Positions 11,261-51,410 of a stretch of DNA of 64,000 nucleotides are shown here, one piece after another; position 1 is the stretch's first letter; the number at the start of each line of letters is the position of its first letter. The translations under genes and the position numbers were made by a program. The notes under the pieces were generated by a model. The model did no database searches. It was not told where the DNA came from and worked only from the letters and a program-made list of their open reading frames with translations. The stretch covers positions 1 to 64,000 of the forward strand of contig JASEHH010000005.1 in the NCBI GenBank assembly GCA_030017685.1. The letters run 5' to 3'. Origin of the DNA: Thermodesulfobacteriota bacterium (GTDB lineage: Bacteria; Desulfobacterota; BSN033; UBA1163).

Positions 11261-11809
11261 ATGGATGATATCGGGGAAAAACTGAAGGCCCTCCGGCTGG
11301 CCAATCGAATGACCCTCAAGCAACTGGCTCAGAAGGCCGGTTGCACAGACGCCTATCTTTCCCAACTCGAAAGGGGACGAGCCAACCCTTCCATCATGAT
11401 CCTTAAAAAGGTTGCTTCTGCACTCAAAGTGAAAGTGGTCGACTTCTTCCTCGAAAACGAAACAGAGGAGAACGAAGTGGTCCTTAAGGAGAAGGAGAGG
11501 GTGAATATCAATTTTAAGCGGGGCGATGCAAAGATTCAGATGCTTGTCCGAAATATTCGGGATAAGCGAATGCAGCCCTTTTATACGACGATTGAACCGA
11601 AAGGAGGGTCAAGGGGGTCTTATTCGCATATCGGTGAGGAATTCGGGATTGTGCTCCAGGGACAATTGGAGATCAAACTGAATGAAAAGCCTTATCGATT
11701 GAAGAAGAACGAAAGTTTCTATTTTTCATCCCAGGAACCTCATAGCTGGTCCAATCCGGGCAAGAAAAAGACAGTGGTCATCTGGGTCGTGAGTCCGCCG
11801 ACGTTTTAA
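11261..11809 (+). CDS. XRE-family transcriptional regulator with C-terminal cupin domain
   Basis: HTH LKQLAQKAGCTDAYLSQLERGRANPSIMILKKVASAL plus cupin region SHIGEEFGIVLQGQLEIKL...SFYFSSQEPHSWSNPG. Confidence 0.9.
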   Translation: MDDIGEKLKALRLANRMTLKQLAQKAGCTDAYLSQLERGRANPSIMILKKVASALKVKVVDFFLENETEENEVVLKEKERVNINFKRGDAKIQMLVRNIRDKRMQPFYTTIEPKGGSRGSYSHIGEEFGIVLQGQLEIKLNEKPYRLKKNESFYFSSQEPHSWSNPGKKKTVVIWVVSPPTF

Positions 11810-11873: not shown

Positions 11874-12941
11874 ATGTGTAACGGATTCACCAGAAGGGAT
11901 TTTTTAAGGAATTCAGTTATCGGTGGTATTGCATTGGGAACTGGATTGGGTGGTTATCAGAGTGCTTACGGACAGACCACCAATTTAAGATTTAGCACCT
12001 GGCATACCCCTCTCAGCAGGGAGGTGAAAACCGTCTGGGAACCGATGCTCGAGGAGATCAAAAAGAAGAGTGGTGGGAAAATCACCTCCACCATGTATGC
12101 CGGCAGCGCTCTGGGCAAAGGGGCGGAACATTTCGATATCGTCGCCAAGGGACTATCCGATATGGGGTACTTCACCGCGACGTGGACACCGGGCCGGTTT
12201 CCTCTTTCGGATGTCCTGTCTCTGGCTGTCTGGGTCGATGGCAAAGACCTAGCCACCGACATCGGCAATGCAATGTACGAACGGATCCTCCATCGGGAGT
12301 TCAAGGATGTGAAGGTGATCGAATTGAACGGGTGCATCCAGTCCTTCCTGTGGACGAAAAAACTGGTCCAGTCCTTATCCGACATAAAAGGACTCAAGAT
12401 AAGATCTCCGGGTGGACATCAAACCCATTATATCAAAGCCCTGGGTGCAGAACCGATTTTTATGCCCCTCCCTGACGTCTATATGGCCATCGAAACAGGA
12501 ACCATCGATGGGCTGGTGACCTGTCCTCCTTTAGTCTTGGCTTTCAAACTGAATGAAGTGGCCAAACACGGAATAGTCACGACTTTCGGTTGTGTCACCG
12601 AAGGGGTGATCATGAACCAGGATAGCTGGAAAAAGGTCCCGGATGACCAGAAGAAGGTGATCGAGGCGGTGGGCCATAATCCTTTCCGTACTACCGGAGG
12701 ATTGACCAGAGAGGCTTACAAGGTCATGATGAAGGAGATTGCTGATAAAGGGGTGAAACTCTATACTCCTCCTGCCGATGAAGCAGAGCGCTGGTTTGAC
12801 GGGTTTAGAGAGGTGACAAGGAAGTGGGTAGCCGATCTGGAAGGGAAGGGGCTTCCAGGAAAAGAAGTCGTGAAGATGTATAACGTGGAGTGTGAAAAGA
12901 GGGGTGTGAAATGCGTCGCCTTCCCACCCGAATGGAAATAA
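11874..12941 (+). CDS. TRAP transporter substrate-binding protein (DctP family) with Tat-type signal
   Basis: RRDFLRNSVIGGIALGTGLGG signal; DctP-type features (LKIRSPGGHQTHYIKALGAEPIFMPLPDVYMAIETGTIDG). Confidence 0.92.
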   Translation: MCNGFTRRDFLRNSVIGGIALGTGLGGYQSAYGQTTNLRFSTWHTPLSREVKTVWEPMLEEIKKKSGGKITSTMYAGSALGKGAEHFDIVAKGLSDMGYFTATWTPGRFPLSDVLSLAVWVDGKDLATDIGNAMYERILHREFKDVKVIELNGCIQSFLWTKKLVQSLSDIKGLKIRSPGGHQTHYIKALGAEPIFMPLPDVYMAIETGTIDGLVTCPPLVLAFKLNEVAKHGIVTTFGCVTEGVIMNQDSWKKVPDDQKKVIEAVGHNPFRTTGGLTREAYKVMMKEIADKGVKLYTPPADEAERWFDGFREVTRKWVADLEGKGLPGKEVVKMYNVECEKRGVKCVAFPPEWK

Positions 12942-12971: not shown

Positions 12972-13457
12972 ATGATGTGGATGAAGATCAAAAAAGGGAT
13001 CCAGCGTTTTAACTACTGGTTGTGCGCTGGAGGCATGTTTCTTCTCCTTCCGTTGATGTTGCTGACGACGGGCGATGTGATTGGAAGAAAATTTTTTTCA
13101 AAAACGATTCCGGGATCATTTGAATTATCCGAATACATCCTGGCCACCTTTATCCTGCTGGGTGTTGCTTACACCCAGCAGGTGAGGGGTCATGTAGGCG
13201 TCTCCTTTTTTACTTCCAAATTATCTTCCCGCGGGCAAACCCTGTGCCAGATTTTAACAACCTTCCTCAGTCTGGTCATCATAGCCGTCGTGGTATGGCA
13301 GGGATTGCTCAAAGGGCTCGAGGAAAAAACCGTATCAGATATGTTGAGGATTCCCCAGTATCCATTTAGACTGCTCGTGTCCTTCGGAGGGTTTCTTCTA
13401 TGGATAGAACTTCTGATTGACCTCATCAGTTCAATAGGAAAGCTCGGGAGGAGGTAA
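12972..13457 (+). CDS. TRAP transporter small permease (DctQ family)
   Basis: Four TM segments, position between DctP and DctM. Confidence 0.9.
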   Translation: MMWMKIKKGIQRFNYWLCAGGMFLLLPLMLLTTGDVIGRKFFSKTIPGSFELSEYILATFILLGVAYTQQVRGHVGVSFFTSKLSSRGQTLCQILTTFLSLVIIAVVVWQGLLKGLEEKTVSDMLRIPQYPFRLLVSFGGFLLWIELLIDLISSIGKLGRR

Positions 13458-13459
13458 CC

Positions 13460-14767
13460 GTGGACCCCATCACTTCGGGAATATTGGGAAGCGTTTTGCT
13501 CATCATCCTTCTATTCCTCGGTATGCCCATCGCCTTTGTCATGATGTTGGTGGGATTTGTGGGGATCAGTTACCTAACATCCGTTCATGCCGCAATGCCT
13601 GTTGTGGCCAGGACGGTCTATGAAACCGCCTCCAATTATCCCTATACCATCATCCCTCTTTTTATCCTGATGGGGGGATTTGCAGGAAATGCCGGGATCA
13701 CGCAGGAGCTTTATCAAACCTTTGATAAGTGGTTCAGGAGGTTGCCGGGAGGATTGGGGATTGCCACCATTGCGGCATGCGCTGGGTTCGCTGCCTTAAG
13801 TGGCTCTTCTGTGGCTGGAGCGGCAGCCATGGGGACGATAGCCCTTCCAGAGATGAGACGGTTTAATTATGCTCCGAGGCTTGCCACAGGAGCAGTGGCG
13901 GCAGGAGGAACACTCGGTTTCCTCATCCCACCCAGTCTGGGCTTTGTGGTCTATGGGATGCTCACAGAGCAGTCCATAGGAAAACTTTTAATTTCAGGTG
14001 TCCTTCCCGGAGTTCTCCTCTCCATTGCATTCATAGCGATCATCTTTTTTATGGTAAAAATGAATCCGGCTTTAGCTCCGATGACACCTGGAGCTGTGAG
14101 CTGGAGGGAGAAAGTATTAGCTCTTTCGGGAATTTGGGAAACATTGCTGGTGTTCTTATTGGTCATGGGTGGGATCTATCTCGGTTTTATCAATCCTACA
14201 GAGGCGGGTGCGATCGGCGCAACAGCCCTTTTTGTGATTGTTTTACTTAAAAAGAGATTAACCCTTGACAACCTTTTTGTCTCCCTTCTGGAAGCGGTCC
14301 GGATTTCCGTCATGGTTCTCTTTCTTGTTGCGGGAGCCAATGTTTTCAGTTATTTCCTGGCTCTTTCTACAATCCCGACAGCCGTATCGACCTGGATGGC
14401 CGGGCTCCAAGTCTCTCCCTATGTCATCCTTGCAATCATCGTATCTATTTATTTAGTTCTCGGCTGTTTTTTAGATGCGATATCTATGATGGTTCTGACG
14501 ATGCCGGTCATCTTTCCGGTCATCACCACATTAGGATTTGATCCGATTTACTTCGGTGTCATCTGCGTGCTCATGATGGAGGCGGGTTTGATCACACCAC
14601 CCATGGGGCTCAACGTCTATACCCTTGCGGGCGTGGCAAAGGATGTTCCGATGGAGGAGATCTTCCGTGGCGCTATGCCTTTTCTTATTTCCATCATCGC
14701 AATCGTCTTCCTCGTAACGATTTTCCCTAAGATTGCCCTTTTTCTCCCGAATATGATGGGGAGGTAA
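13460..14767 (+). CDS. TRAP transporter large permease (DctM family)
   Basis: 435 aa, AACAGFAALSGSSVAGAAAMGTIALPEM, LGFLIPPSLGFVVYGMLTEQSIGKLLISGVLPG. Confidence 0.95.
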   Translation: MDPITSGILGSVLLIILLFLGMPIAFVMMLVGFVGISYLTSVHAAMPVVARTVYETASNYPYTIIPLFILMGGFAGNAGITQELYQTFDKWFRRLPGGLGIATIAACAGFAALSGSSVAGAAAMGTIALPEMRRFNYAPRLATGAVAAGGTLGFLIPPSLGFVVYGMLTEQSIGKLLISGVLPGVLLSIAFIAIIFFMVKMNPALAPMTPGAVSWREKVLALSGIWETLLVFLLVMGGIYLGFINPTEAGAIGATALFVIVLLKKRLTLDNLFVSLLEAVRISVMVLFLVAGANVFSYFLALSTIPTAVSTWMAGLQVSPYVILAIIVSIYLVLGCFLDAISMMVLTMPVIFPVITTLGFDPIYFGVICVLMMEAGLITPPMGLNVYTLAGVAKDVPMEEIFRGAMPFLISIIAIVFLVTIFPKIALFLPNMMGR

Positions 14768-14842
14768 AGGTAATTAGAAAGAGATAGATGTGAGCGTTTC
14801 CGTTCAATAATTGAGAAATCCATAACGAATGTCTGTTGTTTC

Positions 14843-14939
14843 GTCATTCCCGCGAAAGTGGGAATCCAGACGCTGTCTCTGCGAAAGCAGGGAACTATGT
14901 GATCAAAACACCTGGATTCCTGCCTGCGCAGGAATGACA
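14843..14939. repeat. REP-like inverted repeat, family R copy 1
   Basis: GTCATTCCCGCGAAAGTGGGAATCCAG ... CTGGATTCCTGCCTGCGCAGGAATGAC. Confidence 0.9.
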
Positions 14940-15005: not shown

Positions 15006-16526
15006 TTGACGATGGAACCGAAGAGACTCAAAAATTTCATTAATGGACAGTGGGTGGAGTCAAAGACACATCGGTGGCTTGAGGTGAGAAATCCGGCCAC
15101 GGATGAGGTGATTGCCCTCTGTCCGGAAACAACCCCGGACGAAATTGATAGGACGGTAAGGCTCGCCCAGGAAGCCTTCTGGTCATGGAGAAACACGCCC
15201 CCACCCCGGCGCGCAAAATTCCTCTTCGATTTCCACGAGAAACTACAGAAACATCAGGATGAGATTGCGGGGTTGATTGTGAATGAAAACGGAAAGACCC
15301 TGGCCGATGCACGGGGAGAGATAACCCGGGCGATGGAATATGTGGAACATGCCTGCGCGGGGCCCGAACTTCTTAAGGGGAGTCATGCAGAAGATGTGGG
15401 GACCGGTGTCGATACGATGTACATTCGGGAACCCCTCGGCGTTTTCGTATTTCTCCCTCCTTTCAACTTTCCAGCCATGATCGCCCTCTACTTTGTGTGG
15501 GGACTTGCCGCAGGAGATACGGCGATCGTTAAGTCGAGCCGTCTGTGTCCGATGACGGTTACCAGGATAGTTGAGATTGCCGAGGAGTGCGGTTTTCCCA
15601 AAGGGGTGCTCAATCTTCTACACGGTTCAGGGAGTGGAGTGGGCGAAGCCCTGGTTACCCATCCCGGGACTGTTGGGGTTTCCTTTGTCGGCTCTTCGGA
15701 AGTGGGAGAGCGCGTCTATAAAACGGCAATTCATCATAACAAGAGGGCTCAATGCCAGGGAGGCGCAAAGAATCATGTCCTGATTGCCGAGGATGCCATC
15801 ATCGATGAGATCATGCAGAATGTGGTCGACTCCTGCTTCGGTCATGTGGGAGAGCGGTGTTTTGCCGTATCGAATGTGCTGGCTGTTGAGAAGGTTTATG
15901 GGAAGGTCAAAGAGAAGTTCCTCGATCTCTCCAAAAAACTCGTCCTGGGCTACGGCATGGAAAAAGGGGTGACCCTGGGTCCGGTCGTCTCCAAAGAGGC
16001 TTTAAACGAGATGCTCGTAGAGGTGGATCAGGGGATCAAAGATGGGGCAAAGCTCCTGCTCGACGGCAGGAATCCCAGAGTGGATAAATATCCCAAAGGA
16101 TATTTTATTGGTCCTACCGTTTTCGAGGCGGAACCGGAGATGCGCATCTTTCAACTGGAGGTGTTCGGACCGGTTCGCTGTCTCAAGAAGGTGAAGGATC
16201 TCGCAGAGGGTGTTCAGATCATCAATCAAAGCCCTTATGGCCATACGGCAAACATTTACACTGAGAATGGCGGATGGGCTCGAGAATTTGCCCGGTTGGT
16301 CGATGTGGGTCAGGTGGGGATCAATATCGGGACTCCTGCTCCTATTGCCTATTTTCCTGTCGGTGGGAGGAAGATTTCGATGTTCGGCGATATCCGGGGC
16401 CGGGCCAACGAGGCGATTGACTTCTATACCGACAAGAAGGTGATCATCAGCCGGTGGCATTCCTCGTTTCAGGGAGTGGCCAAGACACTGGACGATGGTT
16501 TTGCGATGAAGTATGGGAAGAAGTAA
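15006..16526 (+). CDS. Methylmalonate-semialdehyde-dehydrogenase-like (MmsA-type) aldehyde dehydrogenase
   Basis: 506 aa; MmsA-type motif QGGAKNH, FGHVGERCFAVS, C-terminal LVDVGQVGINIGTPAP...GDIRGRANEAIDFYTDKKVIISRW. Confidence 0.85.
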   Translation: MTMEPKRLKNFINGQWVESKTHRWLEVRNPATDEVIALCPETTPDEIDRTVRLAQEAFWSWRNTPPPRRAKFLFDFHEKLQKHQDEIAGLIVNENGKTLADARGEITRAMEYVEHACAGPELLKGSHAEDVGTGVDTMYIREPLGVFVFLPPFNFPAMIALYFVWGLAAGDTAIVKSSRLCPMTVTRIVEIAEECGFPKGVLNLLHGSGSGVGEALVTHPGTVGVSFVGSSEVGERVYKTAIHHNKRAQCQGGAKNHVLIAEDAIIDEIMQNVVDSCFGHVGERCFAVSNVLAVEKVYGKVKEKFLDLSKKLVLGYGMEKGVTLGPVVSKEALNEMLVEVDQGIKDGAKLLLDGRNPRVDKYPKGYFIGPTVFEAEPEMRIFQLEVFGPVRCLKKVKDLAEGVQIINQSPYGHTANIYTENGGWAREFARLVDVGQVGINIGTPAPIAYFPVGGRKISMFGDIRGRANEAIDFYTDKKVIISRWHSSFQGVAKTLDDGFAMKYGKK

Positions 16527-16535
16527 AAAATCACC

Positions 16536-16830
16536 AATAACCAAGCACCAATAATCAAATAATAACCAATATCCAAATTCTAATAACCAAATTTTTGAAA
16601 CACATTGGCTCTTTGAAAAGGCCTCTACTTATGTCATTCCCGTGAAAACGGGAATCCAGAATCTACAACCCTGGATTCCTGCTTCCGCAGGAATGACAAA
16701 CTTATTGTGCTATGTCACCAAATATTTTTCAAAGCGCTAAATTAATACAAATCTTGTTCGATTATTGGGAAATCGGAAATTATTTGGAGCTTGGAATTTG
16801 GTTATTGGAATTTTGATTTAAATTGCTAAA
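16536..16830. repeat. Nested repeat: phrase-F arms (CCAATAACCAA... / ...TTTGGTTATTGG) enclosing CTTTGAAAAG/TTTTCAAAG arms and REP-like family R copy 2 (16633-16698)
   Basis: Left arm 16536-16595, right arm about 16750-16830; inner REP gtcattcccgtgaaaacgggaatccag...ctggattcctgcttccgcaggaatgac. Confidence 0.85.
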
Positions 16831-16841
16831 GGGAAAGTCCA

Positions 16842-17312
16842 GTGGAGGTAACACTTAAATTCATATTGAATGGGAAGCCTATTGAGGTAAAGGTTCCTCC
16901 TCACTGGACCCTTCTACGGCTTCTTCGTGAGAAATTAGGGCTCACCGGGACAAAGGAGGGCTGTGGAATCGGTGAATGCGGAGCTTGCACTGTCCTGGTG
17001 GATGGTATCCCTCTTCACTCCTGTCTCCTCCTGGCCCCGAAGATAGAAGGGAAAAGTGTTGAAACTGTGGAAGGATTGGGAGGGCGGGATTCTCTCCATG
17101 CGCTTCAGAAATCTTTTGTTGATCATGGGGCGGTCCAGTGCGGATTCTGCACTCCTGGAATATTGATGTCCGCAAAAGCGCTCCTGGATGGAAACCTACA
17201 TCCATCGAAAGAAGAGGTGAAGGAGGCCATTTCCGGTCACCTCTGTCGATGCACTGGATACCAGCAGATCATTGAAGCGATTGAAGCCATCAATAAAGAT
17301 GTTAGAGAATAG
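16842..17312 (+). CDS. 2Fe-2S subunit of a molybdenum hydroxylase (xanthine dehydrogenase family)
   Basis: CGIGECGACTVLVDG and CGFCTPGILMSAKALL...GHLCRCTGYQQI: two [2Fe-2S] motifs. Confidence 0.93.
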   Translation: MEVTLKFILNGKPIEVKVPPHWTLLRLLREKLGLTGTKEGCGIGECGACTVLVDGIPLHSCLLLAPKIEGKSVETVEGLGGRDSLHALQKSFVDHGAVQCGFCTPGILMSAKALLDGNLHPSKEEVKEAISGHLCRCTGYQQIIEAIEAINKDVRE

Positions 17313-17325
17313 AGGGCAGAATTAT

Positions 17326-18195
17326 ATGATTCCTCCTTTTGACTATATAATTCCTGAAACGCTTGAGGAGGCCTGCAATATTCTATGGGAGGCCGGAAAA
17401 GACGTGGGAGTGATTGCAGGAGGGACGGACCGGGTGATCGGCCTGCGCAATGGAGATCACAGCCCCCGCCTTCTCATCGACATCACCCGAATTCCGGAAC
17501 TTCGAAAAATAGAAGAGCAGGACGGAAGGATATTGATAGGCGCCGCCGTTACCCATTCCGAAATTGCCTCTTCTCCTCTGCTGAAGAAATATGGCAGGGT
17601 CCTATCGGATGCAGCCTACGAAATCGGTTCGCCACAAATTAGAAACCTTGGAACAATCGGAGGTAATATTGTCAATGCCTCTCCGGCCGCAGATAGCCTT
17701 CCCCCTTTGATGGTGTTGAATGCTGTCGGAAAGATCGTCTCCAGAGAAGGGGCGAGAGAGGTCCCTCTTGATCAGCTTTTTAAGGGACCTTATGAGACGA
17801 ACCTGAAACCCCATGAGATACTGGTTCACATCGGTTTTGAGAAGCTCTCTTCCGTCATGAGAAGCAGTTTTGTAAGGCTTGCCAGAAGAGAGGCCATGGC
17901 CATTGCGAGGATGAGTATGGCCGTTGTTCTGCGGATTGAAAAGTCGACGAATCTCATTGAGGATATCCGCATCTCTCCTGGAGCCGTTATGCCCCGGCCG
18001 CAAAGAATGTCTGAGGTGGAAGAATTATTGAAACGTAAATCCCCTGACGAGGCAATACTGAAAACGGCCTCGCAAAAGGTTTCCGGGGTAATGGTCCGCA
18101 CAAGCGGTGTCCGATCCTCAACTTCCTATAAAGCGCCTGTGGTGGAGGCTTTATTTTTAAGGGCCATGAGAAGCTGTCTGGAGGATAGGGGATGA
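17326..18195 (+). CDS. FAD-binding subunit of a molybdenum hydroxylase
   Basis: AGGTD, IGSPQIRNLGTIGGNIVNASPAADSLPPL; ATG at 17326 preferred over listed 17272. Confidence 0.92.
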   Translation: MIPPFDYIIPETLEEACNILWEAGKDVGVIAGGTDRVIGLRNGDHSPRLLIDITRIPELRKIEEQDGRILIGAAVTHSEIASSPLLKKYGRVLSDAAYEIGSPQIRNLGTIGGNIVNASPAADSLPPLMVLNAVGKIVSREGAREVPLDQLFKGPYETNLKPHEILVHIGFEKLSSVMRSSFVRLARREAMAIARMSMAVVLRIEKSTNLIEDIRISPGAVMPRPQRMSEVEELLKRKSPDEAILKTASQKVSGVMVRTSGVRSSTSYKAPVVEALFLRAMRSCLEDRG

Positions 18196-20465
18196 GGAGA
18201 CAGGTGGGGACGGACATACCGAAGGTGGATGCGCTGGAGAAAGTTCTAGGGGAAGTCAGGTATGGTGCGGATCTCCCTGCAAAAGAGCCACTTTGTATTA
18301 AGGTTGTCCGGAGTCCAAAATCTCACGCCAAAATTGTGAGAATCGAAATGGATGAGGCTCTCCGCATTCCAGGAGTAGAGAGGGTTTTTACAGCAAAAGA
18401 TATTCCTGGAAAGAACCTCGTTGGAACGATTACCAAGGATCAGCCCATCCTGTGTTCGGATCGGGTGAGGTATATTGGTGACCCGGTCGCATTGGTCGCT
18501 GCCAAAACATCGGAGGCCGCAGAAGCGGCCGCTAAAAAAGTGGTTGTAGTTTATGAAGACCTTCCCGCTCTGAACCACCCTGAAGAGGCTTTCAAACTAA
18601 ATGGACCCCTGATTCACGATAAGGGAAATCTGCTTTTTGAATTTCATGTTATCAAAGGGGATGTTCAGAAGGGATTGAGAGAATCCCATCTCATCATAGA
18701 AAAGACCTATCAGACGACCTGGGTTGATCATGCCTACCTGGAGCCTGATGCAGGTATCTCCTTTCTTGATGAGAAGGGGAGGGTGACGGTCGTCTGTCCA
18801 ACCCAGAATGTTCATTACGATCAAAAAGAAGTGGCCTCTGTGCTTGGGTTGTCCCTGGATCAGGTGAGGATCATCCAATGTGCGACCGGAGGAGGCTTTG
18901 GGGGAAGGCTGGACATCACGATTCAGTGTTTGTTGGCTCTTGCAGTCTTTCATCTCAAAAAACCAGTGAAGATTGTTTACTCGAGGGAGGAGGTCTTTCA
19001 GGTTACGTCCAAACGCCATCCCTTAACGATTCGATATAAAAGTGGTGTGAAAGAAGATGGGACGCTGATTGCCGTGGAAGTGGAAATCTTAGGAGACACG
19101 GGGGCCTATGCTTCTTATGGACCAACGGTAGGCATCCGGTCTGCTGTTCATGCTACTGGACCCTATCACATTCCTAACGTGAAGGTGTGGAGTCGGATGG
19201 CCTATACCAATAATCCATGGTCAGGCGCGATGAGGGGATTCGGAGTGCCTCAGATGGCCTTTGCCCACGAATCTCAGATGGATCTCCTCGCCCAGGCTTT
19301 AAAGATCGATCCCCTTGAGTTTCGTCTAAAAAATTGTCTTCGCATCGGATCCGAGACAGCGACTGGTCAAACCCTGATGGCCAGTGTTGGCATAGGAGAG
19401 ACCTTGAGAAAAGTGAAGGAGTGCAGGGATAAAGCGAACCACTCCGGAGAGGATCCAAAGAGGCCCTTCATCAAGAGAGGGGTGGGAGTGGGCTCGATGT
19501 GGTATGGGATCGGCAATACAGGAATTGCCAACCCCTCGACAGCCCAGATGGAGATTGATCCCAATGGTGAAGTTCGCCTCTACATCGGAGTGGCGGATAT
19601 CGGGCAGGGATCTGACACCGTCCTTCTTCAAATCGCCTCCGAAGGATTAGGGATTCCTTTGAATGAGGTCCGCCTGATTCGGGCCGATACAGCCTTGACG
19701 ACGGATGCAGGGGCCACCTCGGCAAGCCGTCAAACCTATATCTCCGGAAATGCAATCCTCGATGCTATTAAATATTTAAAGCAGGAGGCGATCAAAGAGG
19801 CAGGTCTACTTCTGAGCATGGATGAAAAGGACTTATTTTATGAAGAGGGTAAAGTCAAAGCAAGAACATGTCTAACCACCTCTCTTCCGGTGAGGGAGGT
19901 GGCTAAGAGAAGAGGGAAGGTCATAAAGGGTGAAGGAAGCTTCGATCCTGAGACGACACGGCTCGATCCCAGGACAGGGCAGGGATCGCCCTATGCGACT
20001 TATGCCTTCGCCACCCATCTGGCAGAGGTGGAGGTAGACACGGAGACGGGCAAGGTGAAGGTGAAACGGGTTGTGGCAAGTCACGATGTGGGAAGGGCCA
20101 TCCACCCGAAGAACGTGATCGGTCAGATCACAGGTGGCGTTGCAATGGGAATGGGATTCGCTTTGATGGAGGAGTATGTTCCGGAAGGGACGACCTCTTT
20201 TGTCAACTATCTCATCCCGACATCAAAAGATATTCCTGAGGTGATTCCAATTCTTGTTGAAGAGAATGATCCCAGCGGTCCGTTTGGAGCGAAAGGCGTG
20301 GGAGAACCGGCCCTCATTCCGTGTGCGCCGGCCATATTAAATGCAATTGCGGATGCCATCGGAGAGAGAATATATCAACTTCCTGCCAACCTGGAAAGGG
20401 TGTTGGAGGCAGTTCAAAGAGGTGGAAGTGAAAATTCCAAACATCAAGCACCAATAACCAGATAA
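18192..20465 (+). CDS. Molybdopterin-binding catalytic subunit of a molybdenum hydroxylase (xanthine dehydrogenase family)
   Basis: 757 aa; CATGGGFGGRLD, SGAMRGFGVPQ, FGAKGVGEPALIP (catalytic Glu in GVGE). Confidence 0.93.
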   Translation: MRRQVGTDIPKVDALEKVLGEVRYGADLPAKEPLCIKVVRSPKSHAKIVRIEMDEALRIPGVERVFTAKDIPGKNLVGTITKDQPILCSDRVRYIGDPVALVAAKTSEAAEAAAKKVVVVYEDLPALNHPEEAFKLNGPLIHDKGNLLFEFHVIKGDVQKGLRESHLIIEKTYQTTWVDHAYLEPDAGISFLDEKGRVTVVCPTQNVHYDQKEVASVLGLSLDQVRIIQCATGGGFGGRLDITIQCLLALAVFHLKKPVKIVYSREEVFQVTSKRHPLTIRYKSGVKEDGTLIAVEVEILGDTGAYASYGPTVGIRSAVHATGPYHIPNVKVWSRMAYTNNPWSGAMRGFGVPQMAFAHESQMDLLAQALKIDPLEFRLKNCLRIGSETATGQTLMASVGIGETLRKVKECRDKANHSGEDPKRPFIKRGVGVGSMWYGIGNTGIANPSTAQMEIDPNGEVRLYIGVADIGQGSDTVLLQIASEGLGIPLNEVRLIRADTALTTDAGATSASRQTYISGNAILDAIKYLKQEAIKEAGLLLSMDEKDLFYEEGKVKARTCLTTSLPVREVAKRRGKVIKGEGSFDPETTRLDPRTGQGSPYATYAFATHLAEVEVDTETGKVKVKRVVASHDVGRAIHPKNVIGQITGGVAMGMGFALMEEYVPEGTTSFVNYLIPTSKDIPEVIPILVEENDPSGPFGAKGVGEPALIPCAPAILNAIADAIGERIYQLPANLERVLEAVQRGGSENSKHQAPITR

Positions 20466-20533
20466 ATTCCAATGACCAATATCCAATATCCAAAACTGAT
20501 TTATACACATCGACATTAGTCACAGCAAGGGGC

Positions 20534-20594
20534 GTCATTCCTGCGAAAGCAGGAATCCATTTTTGGACTGGATTCCCGTTTACACGGGAATGAC
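20534..20594. repeat. REP-like inverted repeat, family R copy 3, preceded by a phrase-F arm (about 20437-20500)
   Basis: GTCATTCCTGCGAAAGCAGGAATCCA ... TGGATTCCCGTTTACACGGGAATGAC. Confidence 0.88.
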
Positions 20595-20619: not shown

Positions 20620-21783
20620 ATGCCAAAACTGATGATCAAAAATATTGGCACTCTCGTTTCTGGAGATATTTCCAATCCTCTTTTGACAGGAGATGCACTC
20701 ATCGTCGAAGGAGGTTTGATCCAAGCCATTGGCAGGGAGAAGGATCTCGATGTGAGGGGGATCGAACAGGTGATCGATGCAGGAAAGATGACCCTGACTC
20801 CGGGATTGATCGATTCCCACTGCCATCCTGTCCTTGGGGATTTCACGCCGAGGCAGAAGATGCTTGACTTCATCGAATCCTCCCTCCATGGGGGCGTGAC
20901 GACCGCTATCTCGGCAGGAGAGGTCCACCTTCCCGGAAGACCGAAAGATGTTGCAGGGACAAAGGCACTGGCCATCCTTGCCGCTAAATCTTTTGCCAAT
21001 GCCAGACCCTCTGGTGTAAAGGTGCTGGGAGGGAGCATCATCCTTGAGCCAGGCCTGCAGGAGAAGGATTTTGAAGAACTGGCAAGGGAAGGCGTGAAAG
21101 TGGTGGCTGAGATCGGCTTAGGGGGGGTGAAGAGTCCCAAGGAAGCGGCACCTATGGTCAAATGGGCAAAAAAATGCGGAATGGTTGTGATGATGCATAC
21201 AGGTGGGACTTCCATTCCCGGAAGCGCTACCGTTTCCGCTGATGATGTGATCGCAACGGATCCGGATATCGTCTCGCATATCAACGGCGGGCCCACTGCG
21301 GTCTCGTTTGCAGAAGCTGAAAAATTGATTCGGAAGACCGCACTCACCCTGGAGATTGCGCACTGTGGAAATTCGAAGATGATTGTGGATGTGATGAAGA
21401 TCGTAAAAGAGATGAAGGCATATCCACGGATCATCATTGGCAATGATGCCCCTTCCGGAACCGGCGTGATCCCCCTGGGGATTCTGAGGGTCATCAACTT
21501 TCTGGCTTCCCTCTGCGGCGTGAAGGCAGAGGAGGCCATTGCCATGGCAACAGGCAATACAGCAAAGGTTTATAGATTGAACAGAGGTGTGATTGAGGTT
21601 GGCAGAGAGGCTGATCTGGTCATTATGGATGCACCCTTGGGATCAGTTGGTAAAGATGCTCTCTCTGCGATTGAGGCAGGCGATATCCCAGGGATTGCGG
21701 CTGTTTTGATCGATGGCCGGATGAAGATCGGAGTGAGCCGCAATACACCGCCTCCGAATGGGAAGATAGCAATCAGTCAATAA
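20620..21783 (+). CDS. Enamidase-like amidohydrolase (E. barkeri Ena family)
   Basis: 387 aa; TPGLIDSHCHPVLGDFTPRQKMLDFIESSLHGGVTTAISAGEVHLPGRPKDVAGTKALA, MHTGGTSIPGSATVSADDVI, SHINGGPTA, GNDAPSGTGVIPLGILR. Recognised from memory as resembling enamidase. Confidence 0.82.
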   Translation: MPKLMIKNIGTLVSGDISNPLLTGDALIVEGGLIQAIGREKDLDVRGIEQVIDAGKMTLTPGLIDSHCHPVLGDFTPRQKMLDFIESSLHGGVTTAISAGEVHLPGRPKDVAGTKALAILAAKSFANARPSGVKVLGGSIILEPGLQEKDFEELAREGVKVVAEIGLGGVKSPKEAAPMVKWAKKCGMVVMMHTGGTSIPGSATVSADDVIATDPDIVSHINGGPTAVSFAEAEKLIRKTALTLEIAHCGNSKMIVDVMKIVKEMKAYPRIIIGNDAPSGTGVIPLGILRVINFLASLCGVKAEEAIAMATGNTAKVYRLNRGVIEVGREADLVIMDAPLGSVGKDALSAIEAGDIPGIAAVLIDGRMKIGVSRNTPPPNGKIAISQ

Positions 21784-21889: not shown

Positions 21890-21921
21890 ACTTTTTGACC
21901 CAATTTGAGAGATGGGGATTG

Positions 21922-23442
21922 ATGATGATTGTTAATTTAGAAACCTGTATTGGGTGCGGATTGTGCGTGGAGGTCTGTCCCCTTCAGGCCATCTCCATGA
22001 CGCCTGAGGAGAAGGCATGCATCTCCGATATCTGTGTTGATTGCAAAGCCTGCACAAGGGCTTGTCCAACAGAGGCCATTGCGCCTGAGGAAGAGCCAAA
22101 AGAGGGGGGGGTAAAATGTCCCTCCTGCCCGATCTTCTGCACGATCAGACCTGGCAATACTGGGGCGTGCCAGCGTTTTGTTAATCAAGATGGAAGCCTG
22201 ATTCGGAATATCCCACTCCAGCGCTATGAGGATGTGAAAGAGATCGTTGGTGAGGTCCATGAGGAGGTGATCCGGAGGCCATTGATTACTGGAATCGGCG
22301 CAGGGACGACCTATCCTGATACCAAACCCGCACCCTATATTGTCCAATCGGAACTGGATGGAATTGATGTTGTCACGGTTGTCACAGAAGCCCCGATGAG
22401 TTATAGCGGCATCAAGGTGAAGATCGATACGGACACACATATCGGTAAAGAAGGCGCTCCCGTTCTCATCGGGAAAAAGAGGATTGGCCATCTCTGTACG
22501 GAAGAGTATGGCTCTAAGATTCTCTCATTAGGAGGAGTCAATCTTCTTACCGGCGAAGAGGGCCTTGTCGTCGCCAAACTTATTGTCGATATCGCCAATC
22601 GGAGAGAGGTCCATCTCAAAGTGGAAGAGGGAGCGGAGATGGTTCTTCAAGTGGGCAAGGCTCCTATCATCAATGGCAAAACAGGTACCAGGATGAGAGT
22701 TGGTTGCGGCAGTGCATCTATGGGGCTCTTCGGAAGATATTTCCTGGATGCGGCAGATGAGGTGGTTGTCCTGGATTCCCATCTCATCGGGCAGTTCACA
22801 GAGCATGCGGCAGGAAAGGAGTTGGGGGCTAAATATAGCGGCGTCCGGTTGAGGGCGAGACAGTCCACTCCCGGTCGTTACTTCGGTGAACATGGCAAGG
22901 GATGGGGAGGGACGCCCATTGAGAGCCCGATCGAGATCATCGAGGGTTTCGATCCAAAGATCGCAAAACCGGGGATGACCGTCCTTATCACAGAGACAAC
23001 AGCAGAACGGGCCGCCATGTTTCGTCTGGATGAGAATGGTAAATTTACCCGGATGGATTTAAGCCCAAAAGCAAAGAGGGCAATCGATATGATGGCCTCT
23101 AACTGCCAGCCATCAACGGTTTCCGCCATCTATGTGGGCGGTGCAGGAGGAAGCGCCAGGGCGGGGGTCACAAAGATTCCCGTGAAACTGAATCAAGCCA
23201 TTCATCAGAACCGAGCAAAACTGACCGTGGGGGGAGCGCCGACCTATATTCTGCCAGGAGGTGGAATCACTTTCTTGGTCGATGTGGAAAAGGTAATGGT
23301 GAGAGCCTTCACCTATGTGCCGACTCCTGCGACAGTTGTTCCCCTCGAATATACGATGAGGCTGGATGAATATCTGGAGATAGGGGGGCATAAAGAGAAA
23401 ATTCGAAAATTGAAAGAGGTCTTGAAGGAGATTAAGAAATAA
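21922..23442 (+). CDS. 6-hydroxynicotinate-reductase-like iron-sulfur protein (Hnr family)
   Basis: Two ferredoxin-type motifs (CIGCGLCVEVCP; CVDCKACTRACP), an extra Cys set CPSCPIFCTIRPGNTGAC, and a large conserved C-terminal domain; directly downstream of the enamidase-like gene. ATG at 21922 preferred over TTG at 21895. Confidence 0.75.
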   Translation: MMIVNLETCIGCGLCVEVCPLQAISMTPEEKACISDICVDCKACTRACPTEAIAPEEEPKEGGVKCPSCPIFCTIRPGNTGACQRFVNQDGSLIRNIPLQRYEDVKEIVGEVHEEVIRRPLITGIGAGTTYPDTKPAPYIVQSELDGIDVVTVVTEAPMSYSGIKVKIDTDTHIGKEGAPVLIGKKRIGHLCTEEYGSKILSLGGVNLLTGEEGLVVAKLIVDIANRREVHLKVEEGAEMVLQVGKAPIINGKTGTRMRVGCGSASMGLFGRYFLDAADEVVVLDSHLIGQFTEHAAGKELGAKYSGVRLRARQSTPGRYFGEHGKGWGGTPIESPIEIIEGFDPKIAKPGMTVLITETTAERAAMFRLDENGKFTRMDLSPKAKRAIDMMASNCQPSTVSAIYVGGAGGSARAGVTKIPVKLNQAIHQNRAKLTVGGAPTYILPGGGITFLVDVEKVMVRAFTYVPTPATVVPLEYTMRLDEYLEIGGHKEKIRKLKEVLKEIKK

Positions 23443-23598
23443 ATAACCAATACCCAAAAACCAATAACCAAATAAATTCCAATCACCAATATCCAATATA
23501 CAAAAGCATTATTTAAGATCAATTTATGTTTGGTGATTGTAATTTGGTGATTGGTGATTATTTGGATCTTGGAATTTGGTTATTGGGAGTTGGTGGAT
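23443..23598. repeat. Phrase-F inverted repeat (AATAACCAATACCCAAAAACCAATAACC / GGTGATTGTAATTTGGTGATTGGTGATTATTTGG)
   Basis: Complementary low-complexity arms filling the whole spacer. Confidence 0.8.
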
Positions 23599-24480
23599 AT
23601 GAGAATGCAATTGGCCGAGAAAATATACTCGCATGATCCTATTCAGGTTCTTGCCAGCGGAACCGTCCTCGTGGATTATGGTCCCATGAGGATGTTCATC
23701 ACTGTTATGGAGAAAGGGAAACCTATTATAAGTTTAGCCAAAGAAGGCGCTTGTCTGGCGATACAAATTCTTGAAGACTTGGCAGAATTTCTTCCTGTGA
23801 TTAAAATAAAATCACAGGAGTTGAAAATCGAAGAGGCCTTTCCTGATGTCGTCCGAAGAATGATCGAAGCTACAAAAAAGATGGGGGAACCCGATCTCAC
23901 TCCGCTTGCGGCGGTTGCAGGGACGACCTCTGATAGGGTTGCTGATTTTATCTTCAGCAGGGGGGGGACGAAGGTCATCGTTGATAATGGAGGAGATATC
24001 GCCATCCGATTGAGAGAAGGCGAGGTGACGAGAATAGGAGTGAAGACAGATATTCAGGCAAGAGATCCAGATTATCTGATTACAGTTGATTCTACGACCG
24101 GAATCGGCGGGGTGGCAACGAGTGGCCTTGGGGGAAGAAGTTTCACCAAAGGGATTGCCTCAGCAGCAACCGTGCTTGCAGAAAACGCATCCCTGGCTGA
24201 CGCCGCGGCGACGGTGGTTGGAAATTTTACCAATGTGGATGACCCCAATATCACCAGAACCCTTGCTGAAAAAATATATCCTGACACGGATATTGCCGGA
24301 GAATGGGTGACAGTGGAGGTTGGGAAGTTATCATCAGAAAAAATTGAAGTGGCTTTGAACAGAGGACTGTCCAAGGCATACTCAATTTTCCAGAAGAGAT
24401 GGATTCAAGGAGCTTTGATTGCTGTTCAAGGGAACGTCGCTTGGACGGATTCATTAGATTCCTTATTAAAGAAATTGTAA
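23599..24480 (+). CDS. UPF0280 (COG2122, ApbE superfamily) protein
   Basis: FGPM-like start (VLVDYGPMRMFI), VDNGGDIAIRL, GVATSGLGGRSFTKGIASAATVLAENASLADAAATVVGN. The listed start at 23551 translates repeat sequence; ATG 23599 preferred. Confidence 0.82.
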   Translation: MRMQLAEKIYSHDPIQVLASGTVLVDYGPMRMFITVMEKGKPIISLAKEGACLAIQILEDLAEFLPVIKIKSQELKIEEAFPDVVRRMIEATKKMGEPDLTPLAAVAGTTSDRVADFIFSRGGTKVIVDNGGDIAIRLREGEVTRIGVKTDIQARDPDYLITVDSTTGIGGVATSGLGGRSFTKGIASAATVLAENASLADAAATVVGNFTNVDDPNITRTLAEKIYPDTDIAGEWVTVEVGKLSSEKIEVALNRGLSKAYSIFQKRWIQGALIAVQGNVAWTDSLDSLLKKL

Positions 24481-24489
24481 AAGATGGAA

Positions 24490-24627
24490 TCGTAAAAAGG
24501 TCATTCCCGTGAAAACGGGAATCCAGAGAATTCTAACTACTTGAAAATACTGGATTCCTGCTGGAGTTTATCCCGATGAAAATCGGGGCAGGAATGACTG
24601 ATAATGTGCTTTTCAGACTTTTTACGA
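24490..24627. repeat. Nested repeat: TCGTAAAAAG/CTTTTTACGA arms around REP-like family R copy 4 (24500-24598)
   Basis: tcattcccgtgaaaacgggaatccag ... ctggattcctgc[tggagtttatcccgatgaaaatcggg]gcaggaatgac. Confidence 0.85.
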
Positions 24628-24746
24628 GGCCATTATAAAAAGAAATCTCCCTTGCTCACCCCTCGCGGGAGAGGGGTAGCCTGCCTGCCCCGCCCTCGAT
24701 CGGGACCGGGGCCGGTAGGCAGGGGTGAGGGGCAGGAGGTGTGATT

Positions 24747-25325
24747 ATGGAAATCAGAAAATATGTCACCATTGTTGAGGAGACCGTGATAGAGGGGGGG
24801 AAAAAGGTTGATCCGCCAACTCGGAAAGCAGCTGCCATTGCAGTGATCAAAAATCCCTTTGCCGGAAAGTATGTGGAGAAGCTCGACTCCCTCATCGATA
24901 TTGGTGAGGCATTAGGAGGGATATTGGGGAAGAAGGCGGTTGAGGCATTAAAGATCGCCCCTGAAAAAGCAGAGAGCTATGGGAAGGCGGCCATTGTTGG
25001 AGTGGATGGCGAATTAGAACATGCGGCCGCCATCCTTCATCCAAAACTCGGGACTCCCTTAAGGGATGCGGTTGGTGGAGGAAAGGCAATCATCCCATCG
25101 GCCAAAAAGATGGGAGGGCCTGGAACGGAGATCGATGTCCCCCTTCATTATAAGGATGCGGCCTTTGTCAGGTCTCATTTCGATGCGATGAGCGTGAGGG
25201 TTCAGGATGCTCCTCGTTCTAATGAGATCGTTGTCGCCATTGTCGTGACCGATTCAGGCAGACCTCACGCAAGAATTGGCGGCTTAAAGAAAGAAGAGGC
25301 AAAAAAAGGAGACGGCCTGAAATAG
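24747..25325 (+). CDS. DUF1185 (PF06684, 'amino acid synthesis') family protein
   Basis: MEIRKYVTIVEETVIEGGKKVDPPTRKAAAIAVIKNPFAG...GVDGELEHAAAILHPKLGTPLRDAVGGGKAIIPS. Confidence 0.8.
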   Translation: MEIRKYVTIVEETVIEGGKKVDPPTRKAAAIAVIKNPFAGKYVEKLDSLIDIGEALGGILGKKAVEALKIAPEKAESYGKAAIVGVDGELEHAAAILHPKLGTPLRDAVGGGKAIIPSAKKMGGPGTEIDVPLHYKDAAFVRSHFDAMSVRVQDAPRSNEIVVAIVVTDSGRPHARIGGLKKEEAKKGDGLK

Positions 25326-50267: not shown

Positions 50268-51410
50268 TTAGAGCCCGATGTTTCTGGCTATGATGTTCCT
50301 GTGTATCTGGGAAGTCCCCTCGCCGATCTCCAGGAGCTTGCAGTCCCGGTAAAACCTCGAAACCGGATACTCGTCCATAAAGCCGTACCCTCCATGGATT
50401 TGAACTGCTTGTGCACAGATATTCGAAGCGATCTCTGTGGCAAAAAGCTTGGCCATGGAGGACTCCTTGATGCAGGGGGCCTTATTAGACGCCAGCCACG
50501 CGGCCTGATACGTCAACAGTTTTGCCGCCTCAATCTGAGTGGCCATATCAGCTAACATCCATTGAATGCCCTGAAATTTTCCAATGGGTTGTCCGAACTG
50601 GTATCGGGTTTTCGCATAATCAAGGGCTGCATCGTATGCTGCCCGGGCCATGCCCACTGCAAAGGCGGCAGCCACAATGCGCCCCTCGGTCAATGTCCCC
50701 ATGGCCGCTATGAAACCGGTGTTCTCTTTCCCTAACATATTTGAAGCCGGAACACTGCACTCGTCGAAGACCAGCTCTGCTGCCTCCGATGCCTTCATTC
50801 CCATCTTCTTCAACTTTTTTGATACGGAGAACCCTGGCGTATTCTTGTCCACAATGAAAAGGCTGATTCCCTTCATTCCGAGAGAGGGATCGGTGACCGC
50901 AGTGACGACGACGAAATCCGCAAAAGTCCCGTTGGTGATAAACATCTTCGTCCCATTGATTATGAAAGCATCCCCCTCTCTTTTCGCCCTGGTCGTCATG
51001 GAACCAGGATCCGATCCTGCCCCGGGCTCGGCAAATCCCCAGGCGCCGACCATATCACCCCGTATTCCCGGTATGAGATATTTCCTTTTCTGTTCGCTGC
51101 TTCCAAAGAACAATATGGCCGACATGGCGAGATAAAGATGAACATAAATTCCCAGGTAGATCCCTGGTGATACATAGCCAAGTTCCTCCGACATGATAAC
51201 GGAAAACATGGTGTCCCCCCCGATACCCCCGAATTCCTCCGGAAATCGGGCGCCCAAGTAACCCAGTTCTCCAATCTTCCTGAAAATGAACTGTGGGTAC
51301 TCTGCTCTTTCCTCGTACTCGTCAACGAGGGAAACTATCTCCTTTTTGGCAAATCTTCGCAGTGCATCGCGGAAAGCTTCTTGCTCATCCGTCAGGGAAA
51401 GATCGATCAT
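50268..51410 (-). CDS. Acyl-CoA dehydrogenase family protein
   Basis: GAWGFAEPGAGSDPGSM, GTKMFITNG, YRDCKLLEIGEGTSQIHRNIIAR. ATG at 51410. Confidence 0.94.
   Translation of the reverse strand: MIDLSLTDEQEAFRDALRRFAKKEIVSLVDEYEERAEYPQFIFRKIGELGYLGARFPEEFGGIGGDTMFSVIMSEELGYVSPGIYLGIYVHLYLAMSAILFFGSSEQKRKYLIPGIRGDMVGAWGFAEPGAGSDPGSMTTRAKREGDAFIINGTKMFITNGTFADFVVVTAVTDPSLGMKGISLFIVDKNTPGFSVSKKLKKMGMKASEAAELVFDECSVPASNMLGKENTGFIAAMGTLTEGRIVAAAFAVGMARAAYDAALDYAKTRYQFGQPIGKFQGIQWMLADMATQIEAAKLLTYQAAWLASNKAPCIKESSMAKLFATEIASNICAQAVQIHGGYGFMDEYPVSRFYRDCKLLEIGEGTSQIHRNIIARNIGL

Follow-up and report, generated by a model that had tools for sequence, protein, structure and literature searches.

An MmsA-type aldehyde dehydrogenase in anaerobic nicotinate clusters as a proposed link between 2-formylglutarate and glutaryl-CoA

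Our sequence comparisons suggest that an MmsA-type aldehyde dehydrogenase (ALDH) gene in the nicotinate cluster of a Thermodesulfobacteriota bacterium (GCA_030017685.1) probably encodes a 2-formylglutarate dehydrogenase (decarboxylating, CoA-acylating). The reaction that it most likely catalyses is 2-formylglutarate + CoA + NAD -> glutaryl-CoA + CO2 + NADH. The wider reading, held a shade less firmly and still considered likely, is that two MmsA-like families, deeply divergent but interchangeable, make up this undescribed dehydrogenase and that it marks a third nicotinate route, free of B12, in anaerobic Desulfobacterota-like and Bacillota lineages. The window, i.e. the whole stretch of DNA that was analysed, covers 64,000 nt (positions 1-64,000 of contig JASEHH010000005.1).

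The ALDH open reading frame spans 15006-16526 on the + strand, with a TTG at 15006 and an ATG at 15012. A Shine-Dalgarno-like AAAGGA precedes the ATG, which is therefore the probable start and preferred over the TTG (gene 15012-16526, 504 aa); residue numbers are counted from the TTG at 15006. The MmsA-type motifs named in the original prediction, QGGAKNH and FGHVGERCF, were both found, and the family call agrees with them. The NCBIfam model TIGR01722 (methylmalonate-semialdehyde dehydrogenase, MMSDH) scores 468.9 bits at a curated cut-off of 448.5, the runner-up family reaches 334.8, and the top ten PDB sequence matches are all MMSDH, with 1t90 as the best. This score above cut-off also speaks for an ordinary methylmalonate/malonate semialdehyde dehydrogenase placed here by chance, a reading that we regard as highly improbable and as the least probable of those weighed here: the same genome carries a separate MMSDH (gene C153) with the higher score of 511 bits, and the two ALDH types of nicotinate clusters, A and B (see below), form clades of their own that track the enamidase almost perfectly. 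The window ALDH resembles MmsA/IolA, the methylmalonate(malonate)-semialdehyde dehydrogenase (TIGR01722, PDB 1T90), in family, catalytic Cys, paired arginines and missing Glu268, but differs in its separate clade, its location in a nicotinate cluster and the presence of H413, R455 and R466.

In the alignment, C285, R108, R284 and Q251 of the window ALDH occupy the positions of the MmsA catalytic Cys, Arg124, Arg301 and Glu268, respectively. The equivalents of Arg124 and Arg301 are invariant in 16 type-A sequences, 30 type-B sequences and the MmsA set, and the catalytic Cys is kept. A hydrolytic-type ALDH from the same set has neither arginine and retains the Glu. In B. subtilis MmsA both arginines bind the beta-carboxylate, as Talfournier and co-workers reportedly found in 2011; the absence of Glu268 from types A and B presumably fits acyl transfer to CoA, not to water. 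The paired arginines could be inherited, not selected. A hydrolytic ALDH forming glutarate (or a tricarboxylate) that is later activated by a CoA ligase or transferase is very unlikely, because all 46 type-A and type-B sequences have Gln or Asn where the general base Glu268 would stand and the family call is CoA-acylating; in its favour, free glutarate is the product of the aerobic route described in PMC3511419. As for the additional basic residues, H413, R455 and R466 are common to A and B and rare or absent in MmsA, and K302 and R430 follow this pattern less strictly. R455 and R466 fall in the C-terminal loop, known from other ALDHs to line the substrate entrance, which makes them candidates, as a lead only, for holding the extra carboxylate. 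An AlphaFold2 model built from 11 sequences has a pLDDT of 77, with active-site loop residues 281-283 and 448-478 below 50.

The genes around the ALDH, all on the + strand, would by homology take up nicotinate, hydroxylate and reduce it, and open its ring to give 2-formylglutarate. An XRE-cupin transcriptional regulator (11261-11809; HTH_3 and Cupin_2), retained beside many ena clusters and probably the cluster regulator, is followed by a TRAP transporter consisting of substrate-binding protein (DctP, 11874-12941; probable nicotinate uptake), small permease (DctQ, 12972-13457) and large permease (DctM, 13460-14767), all three assigned from sequence character and colinear in relatives. Downstream of the ALDH lie the nicotinate dehydrogenase subunits: the [2Fe-2S] subunit (16842-17312; Fer2/Fer2_2), the FAD subunit (17272-18195; FAD_binding_5, CO_deh_flav_C) and the molybdopterin subunit (18192-20465), which unites two Eubacterium barkeri subunits in one chain, its halves matching chains A and B of 3HRD. 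The E. barkeri nicotinate dehydrogenase 3HRD is the best PDB match of this Mo-hydroxylase. The 2-formylglutarate-forming enamidase (20620-21783) matches E. barkeri enamidase 2VUN end to end (470 bits, about 59% identity). NCBIfam offers no dedicated family for the 6-hydroxynicotinate reductase with its fused ferredoxin domain (21895-23442), which was assigned by its E. barkeri cluster homologue (486 bits) and by homologues in plasmid records that carry the annotation 6-hydroxynicotinate reductase. A UPF0280/ApbE-like protein (23551-24480) and an AA_synth (PF06684) protein (24741-25325), to which no role is assigned, are near-constant companions of hnr-ena. In plasmid clusters of Proteobacteria (L252, L253, L257, L258) the AA_synth gene is present twice, and all but one of these four also contain an annotated ferredoxin-NADP reductase.

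The claim that the ALDH belongs to the same operon as these genes is borne out as far as strand, colinearity and conservation in relatives go, but gaps of 100-320 bp hold REP-like palindromes. Neither promoter nor terminator scans of the cluster outperformed shuffled sequence, terminator-like hits being no more frequent than in shuffles. The palindromes (GTCATTCC...GGAATCCAG / CTGGATTCC...GGAATGAC) occur in four cluster gaps (14842-14939, 16632-16698, 20533-20594 and 24499-24526) and belong to a family with more than 80 matches per strand genome-wide, the reversed control giving 0. A second catabolic cluster lies on the - strand of the window (38948-60845) and comprises a branched-chain-type ABC transporter, an acyl-CoA ligase, several crotonases, thiolase-like genes, two acyl-CoA dehydrogenases nearest to acryloyl-CoA reductase and an XRE-cupin regulator resembling that of the nicotinate cluster.

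Two MmsA-like families with 35-38% identity to each other occur in nicotinate clusters, type A (including the window ALDH) and type B. Among 396 sampled genomes of the phylum the enamidase is present in 59. Type A was found in 14 genomes, all 14 enamidase-positive, and type B in 36, of which 35 are enamidase-positive; thus A or B (50/396 overall) occurs in 49 of the 59 enamidase-positive genomes vs one of the 337 others, and A and B never occur in the same genome. The sole enamidase-negative type-B gene lies on a contig of only 6.8 kb, directly adjoining an AA_synth gene, so that its nicotinate cluster has probably been cut. Ten of the 59 enamidase-positive genomes have neither A nor B, two of them with more distant enamidase homologues and no reductase alongside. 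Several type-B genes sit away from the nicotinate cluster on their contig. TIGR01722 is the top family in all tabulated A and B cluster representatives and matches 11/11 members of A2; type-B relatives score 386-391, i.e. under the curated cut-off of 448.5.

In the family to which the window belongs, L035 and L040 carry type A between DctM and the [2Fe-2S] subunit, and L037, L039 and L043 carry type B in that slot. On the reductase tree (n=87) the states A, B and Hgd (the branch marker of E. barkeri, see below) need 11 changes vs 4 for route alone (ALDH or Hgd), so that the route has changed only about four times and A and B have been exchanged at least about seven times. Repeated exchange in one pathway slot argues that both types do the same reaction. 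In the ALDH tree, A and B each form one clade with full support. In the phylogeny proposed for placing the ALDH against MmsA, the window ALDH falls into its own clade (support 100), and A and B may be sisters or may have arisen separately from MmsA (p-AU 0.26 and 0.30 for the branching of MmsA versus A+B); since a single A+B clade is compatible with the data (p-AU 0.30), we do not claim that each was recruited from MmsA independently. MmsA-like genes 46-47% identical to the window ALDH also occur outside nicotinate clusters (L251:8135-9580 and G007:C11), the former adjoining a branched-chain-type ABC transporter and a molybdopterin oxidoreductase-like gene.

The E. barkeri nicotinate fermentation cluster (L094) shares nicotinate dehydrogenase, 6-hydroxynicotinate reductase, enamidase, UPF0280 and AA_synth with the window, but goes on with Hgd, Hmd, Mgm, Mii, DmdAB and Dml and has no ALDH within the 21 kb covered. 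None of these continuing genes is among the cluster genes of the window, which has the ALDH instead. A wider scan of genome contigs gave 79 named loci including E. barkeri, 63 of them with enamidase and reductase. The E. barkeri genes Hgd, Mgm, Mii, Hmd, Dml and DmdAB, named by known gene order and sequence character, were the queries for the downstream branch. Among these 63, Hgd/Mgm alone was found in 44, ALDH alone in 10, neither in 9 and both in none (Fisher p 7e-7, with loci treated as independent despite kinship). Clusters of the window's own phylum gave 33 with ALDH, 0 with Hgd/Mgm at cut-off and 18 with neither. Short contigs account for most of these 18, among which L063 breaks off in an incomplete Hgd scoring just below cut-off. 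Two draft assemblies hold mixed clusters. In a Dethiobacter type-B cluster an Hgd-family gene (L166:4711-5379) has lost about 84 internal residues in frame, and in PH28_bin88 (L127:11480-14906) an apparently intact 2-hydroxymethylglutarate dehydratase (Hmd)-like gene stands beside a type-A ALDH, with no Hgd and no mutase in that cluster. Both look like leftovers, and the shortened Dethiobacter gene is possibly a relic of the B12 route. In the source genome of the window the match to E. barkeri 2-methyleneglutarate mutase is restricted to the B12-binding end, the catalytic part being absent. The single Hgd homologue of this genome was rejected as a route gene because it is a TIGR01505 tartronate-semialdehyde reductase; its neighbour resembles, by eye, hydroxypyruvate isomerase.

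The proposed downstream step is represented by the Desulfococcus multivorans glutaryl-CoA dehydrogenase (3MPI), of which the window's genome has a candidate homologue. For this candidate 3MPI is the best solved relative (378 vs 311 bits) and NF045552 the best family (467.4 bits vs a cut-off of 470), and it lies near benzoyl-CoA pathway genes that score above cut-off for TIGR03200 and TIGR03201. The searchable literature gives no link between the 3MPI enzyme and nicotinate. Ranking with a human glutaryl-CoA dehydrogenase fragment gave no discrimination among candidates; the one named here was chosen by its 3MPI and NF045552 matches. The source genome also has a sodium-pumping decarboxylase beta subunit with no substrate assigned. 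A close glutaryl-CoA dehydrogenase is present in 39/46 ALDH-type vs 2/26 Hgd-type genomes (p 8e-11), and the Bacillota/Actinomycetota rows alone give 6/8 vs 2/26 (p 5e-4). This association is suggestive only, because the bit threshold was chosen after a score gap had been seen and only 2-3 independent pairs remain after removal of kinship. The window acyl-CoA dehydrogenases at 50268 and 54004 were rejected as glutaryl-CoA dehydrogenases, their best family being acryloyl-CoA reductase and the glutaryl model giving 301.6 and 264.3 bits.

An order of events in which 2-formylglutarate loses CO2 first, spontaneously or through some other enzyme, and the ALDH merely oxidises glutarate semialdehyde to glutaryl-CoA, appears unlikely, although it deserves more weight than the two alternatives treated above. 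Beta-formyl acids decarboxylate readily as a matter of general chemistry, decarboxylation in the Azorhizobium route is said to precede oxidation (a finding ascribed to Kitts, 1992), and the CoA-acylating features would fit glutarate semialdehyde as a substrate equally well. However, the beta-carboxylate arginines are invariant in two deeply split families and would be superfluous for glutarate semialdehyde, which argues against decarboxylation before the ALDH, and the unmatched families that recur widely in the clusters are, judged by eye, transporters and regulators only. The nicotinate route of Azorhizobium and Bradyrhizobiaceae, which PMC3511419 and its references describe as passing through glutarate, shares with the window the first three steps and a glutarate-level product. 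Related aerobic proteobacterial clusters (Comamonadaceae, Sulfitobacter and Rhizobium plasmids) differ from that of the window in having no MmsA-type ALDH within 10 kb. The reaction can therefore be done otherwise, in agreement with a different aerobic solution (PMC3511419).

Oxidative decarboxylation by the ALDH itself is thus the reading that we prefer. With NAD, the enzyme would convert the aldehyde of 2-formylglutarate into a thioester on Cys285, the beta-carboxylate being bound by Arg108 and Arg284; going by MmsA chemistry, CO2 would then be lost and the glutaryl group passed to CoA. Glutaryl-CoA could enter the benzoyl-CoA lower pathway via glutaryl-CoA dehydrogenase, for which the candidate gene is present. 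The MmsA-type route would replace the B12-dependent branch of E. barkeri and make the transfer of CoA, as needed in the Azorhizobium route, unnecessary. The bypass of the E. barkeri branch put forward in the original prediction has gained support from the mutual exclusion, the near-exclusive co-occurrence with enamidase, the A/B swaps, the arginines and the glutaryl-CoA dehydrogenase candidate, and its one-step decarboxylation stays a proposal.

We know of no described enzyme that converts 2-formylglutarate to glutaryl-CoA, and the MmsA class is to our knowledge the only ALDH class with beta-decarboxylation. The prediction had likewise named no described enzyme with this activity, and the open-access literature on 6-hydroxynicotinate reductase and 2-formylglutarate, in its accessible part, proposes no such step. 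What would be new is the application of MmsA chemistry to a new substrate, the upper nicotinate pathway that it would complete being already known. If true, our reading adds a substrate to the beta-decarboxylating ALDH class, and many genomes could be annotated beyond 'methylmalonate-semialdehyde dehydrogenase', given A or B in 50/396 genomes of this phylum. Respiring or syntrophic anaerobes may then route vitamin B3 to glutaryl-CoA in a way that needs no B12 and conserves both a thioester and NADH.
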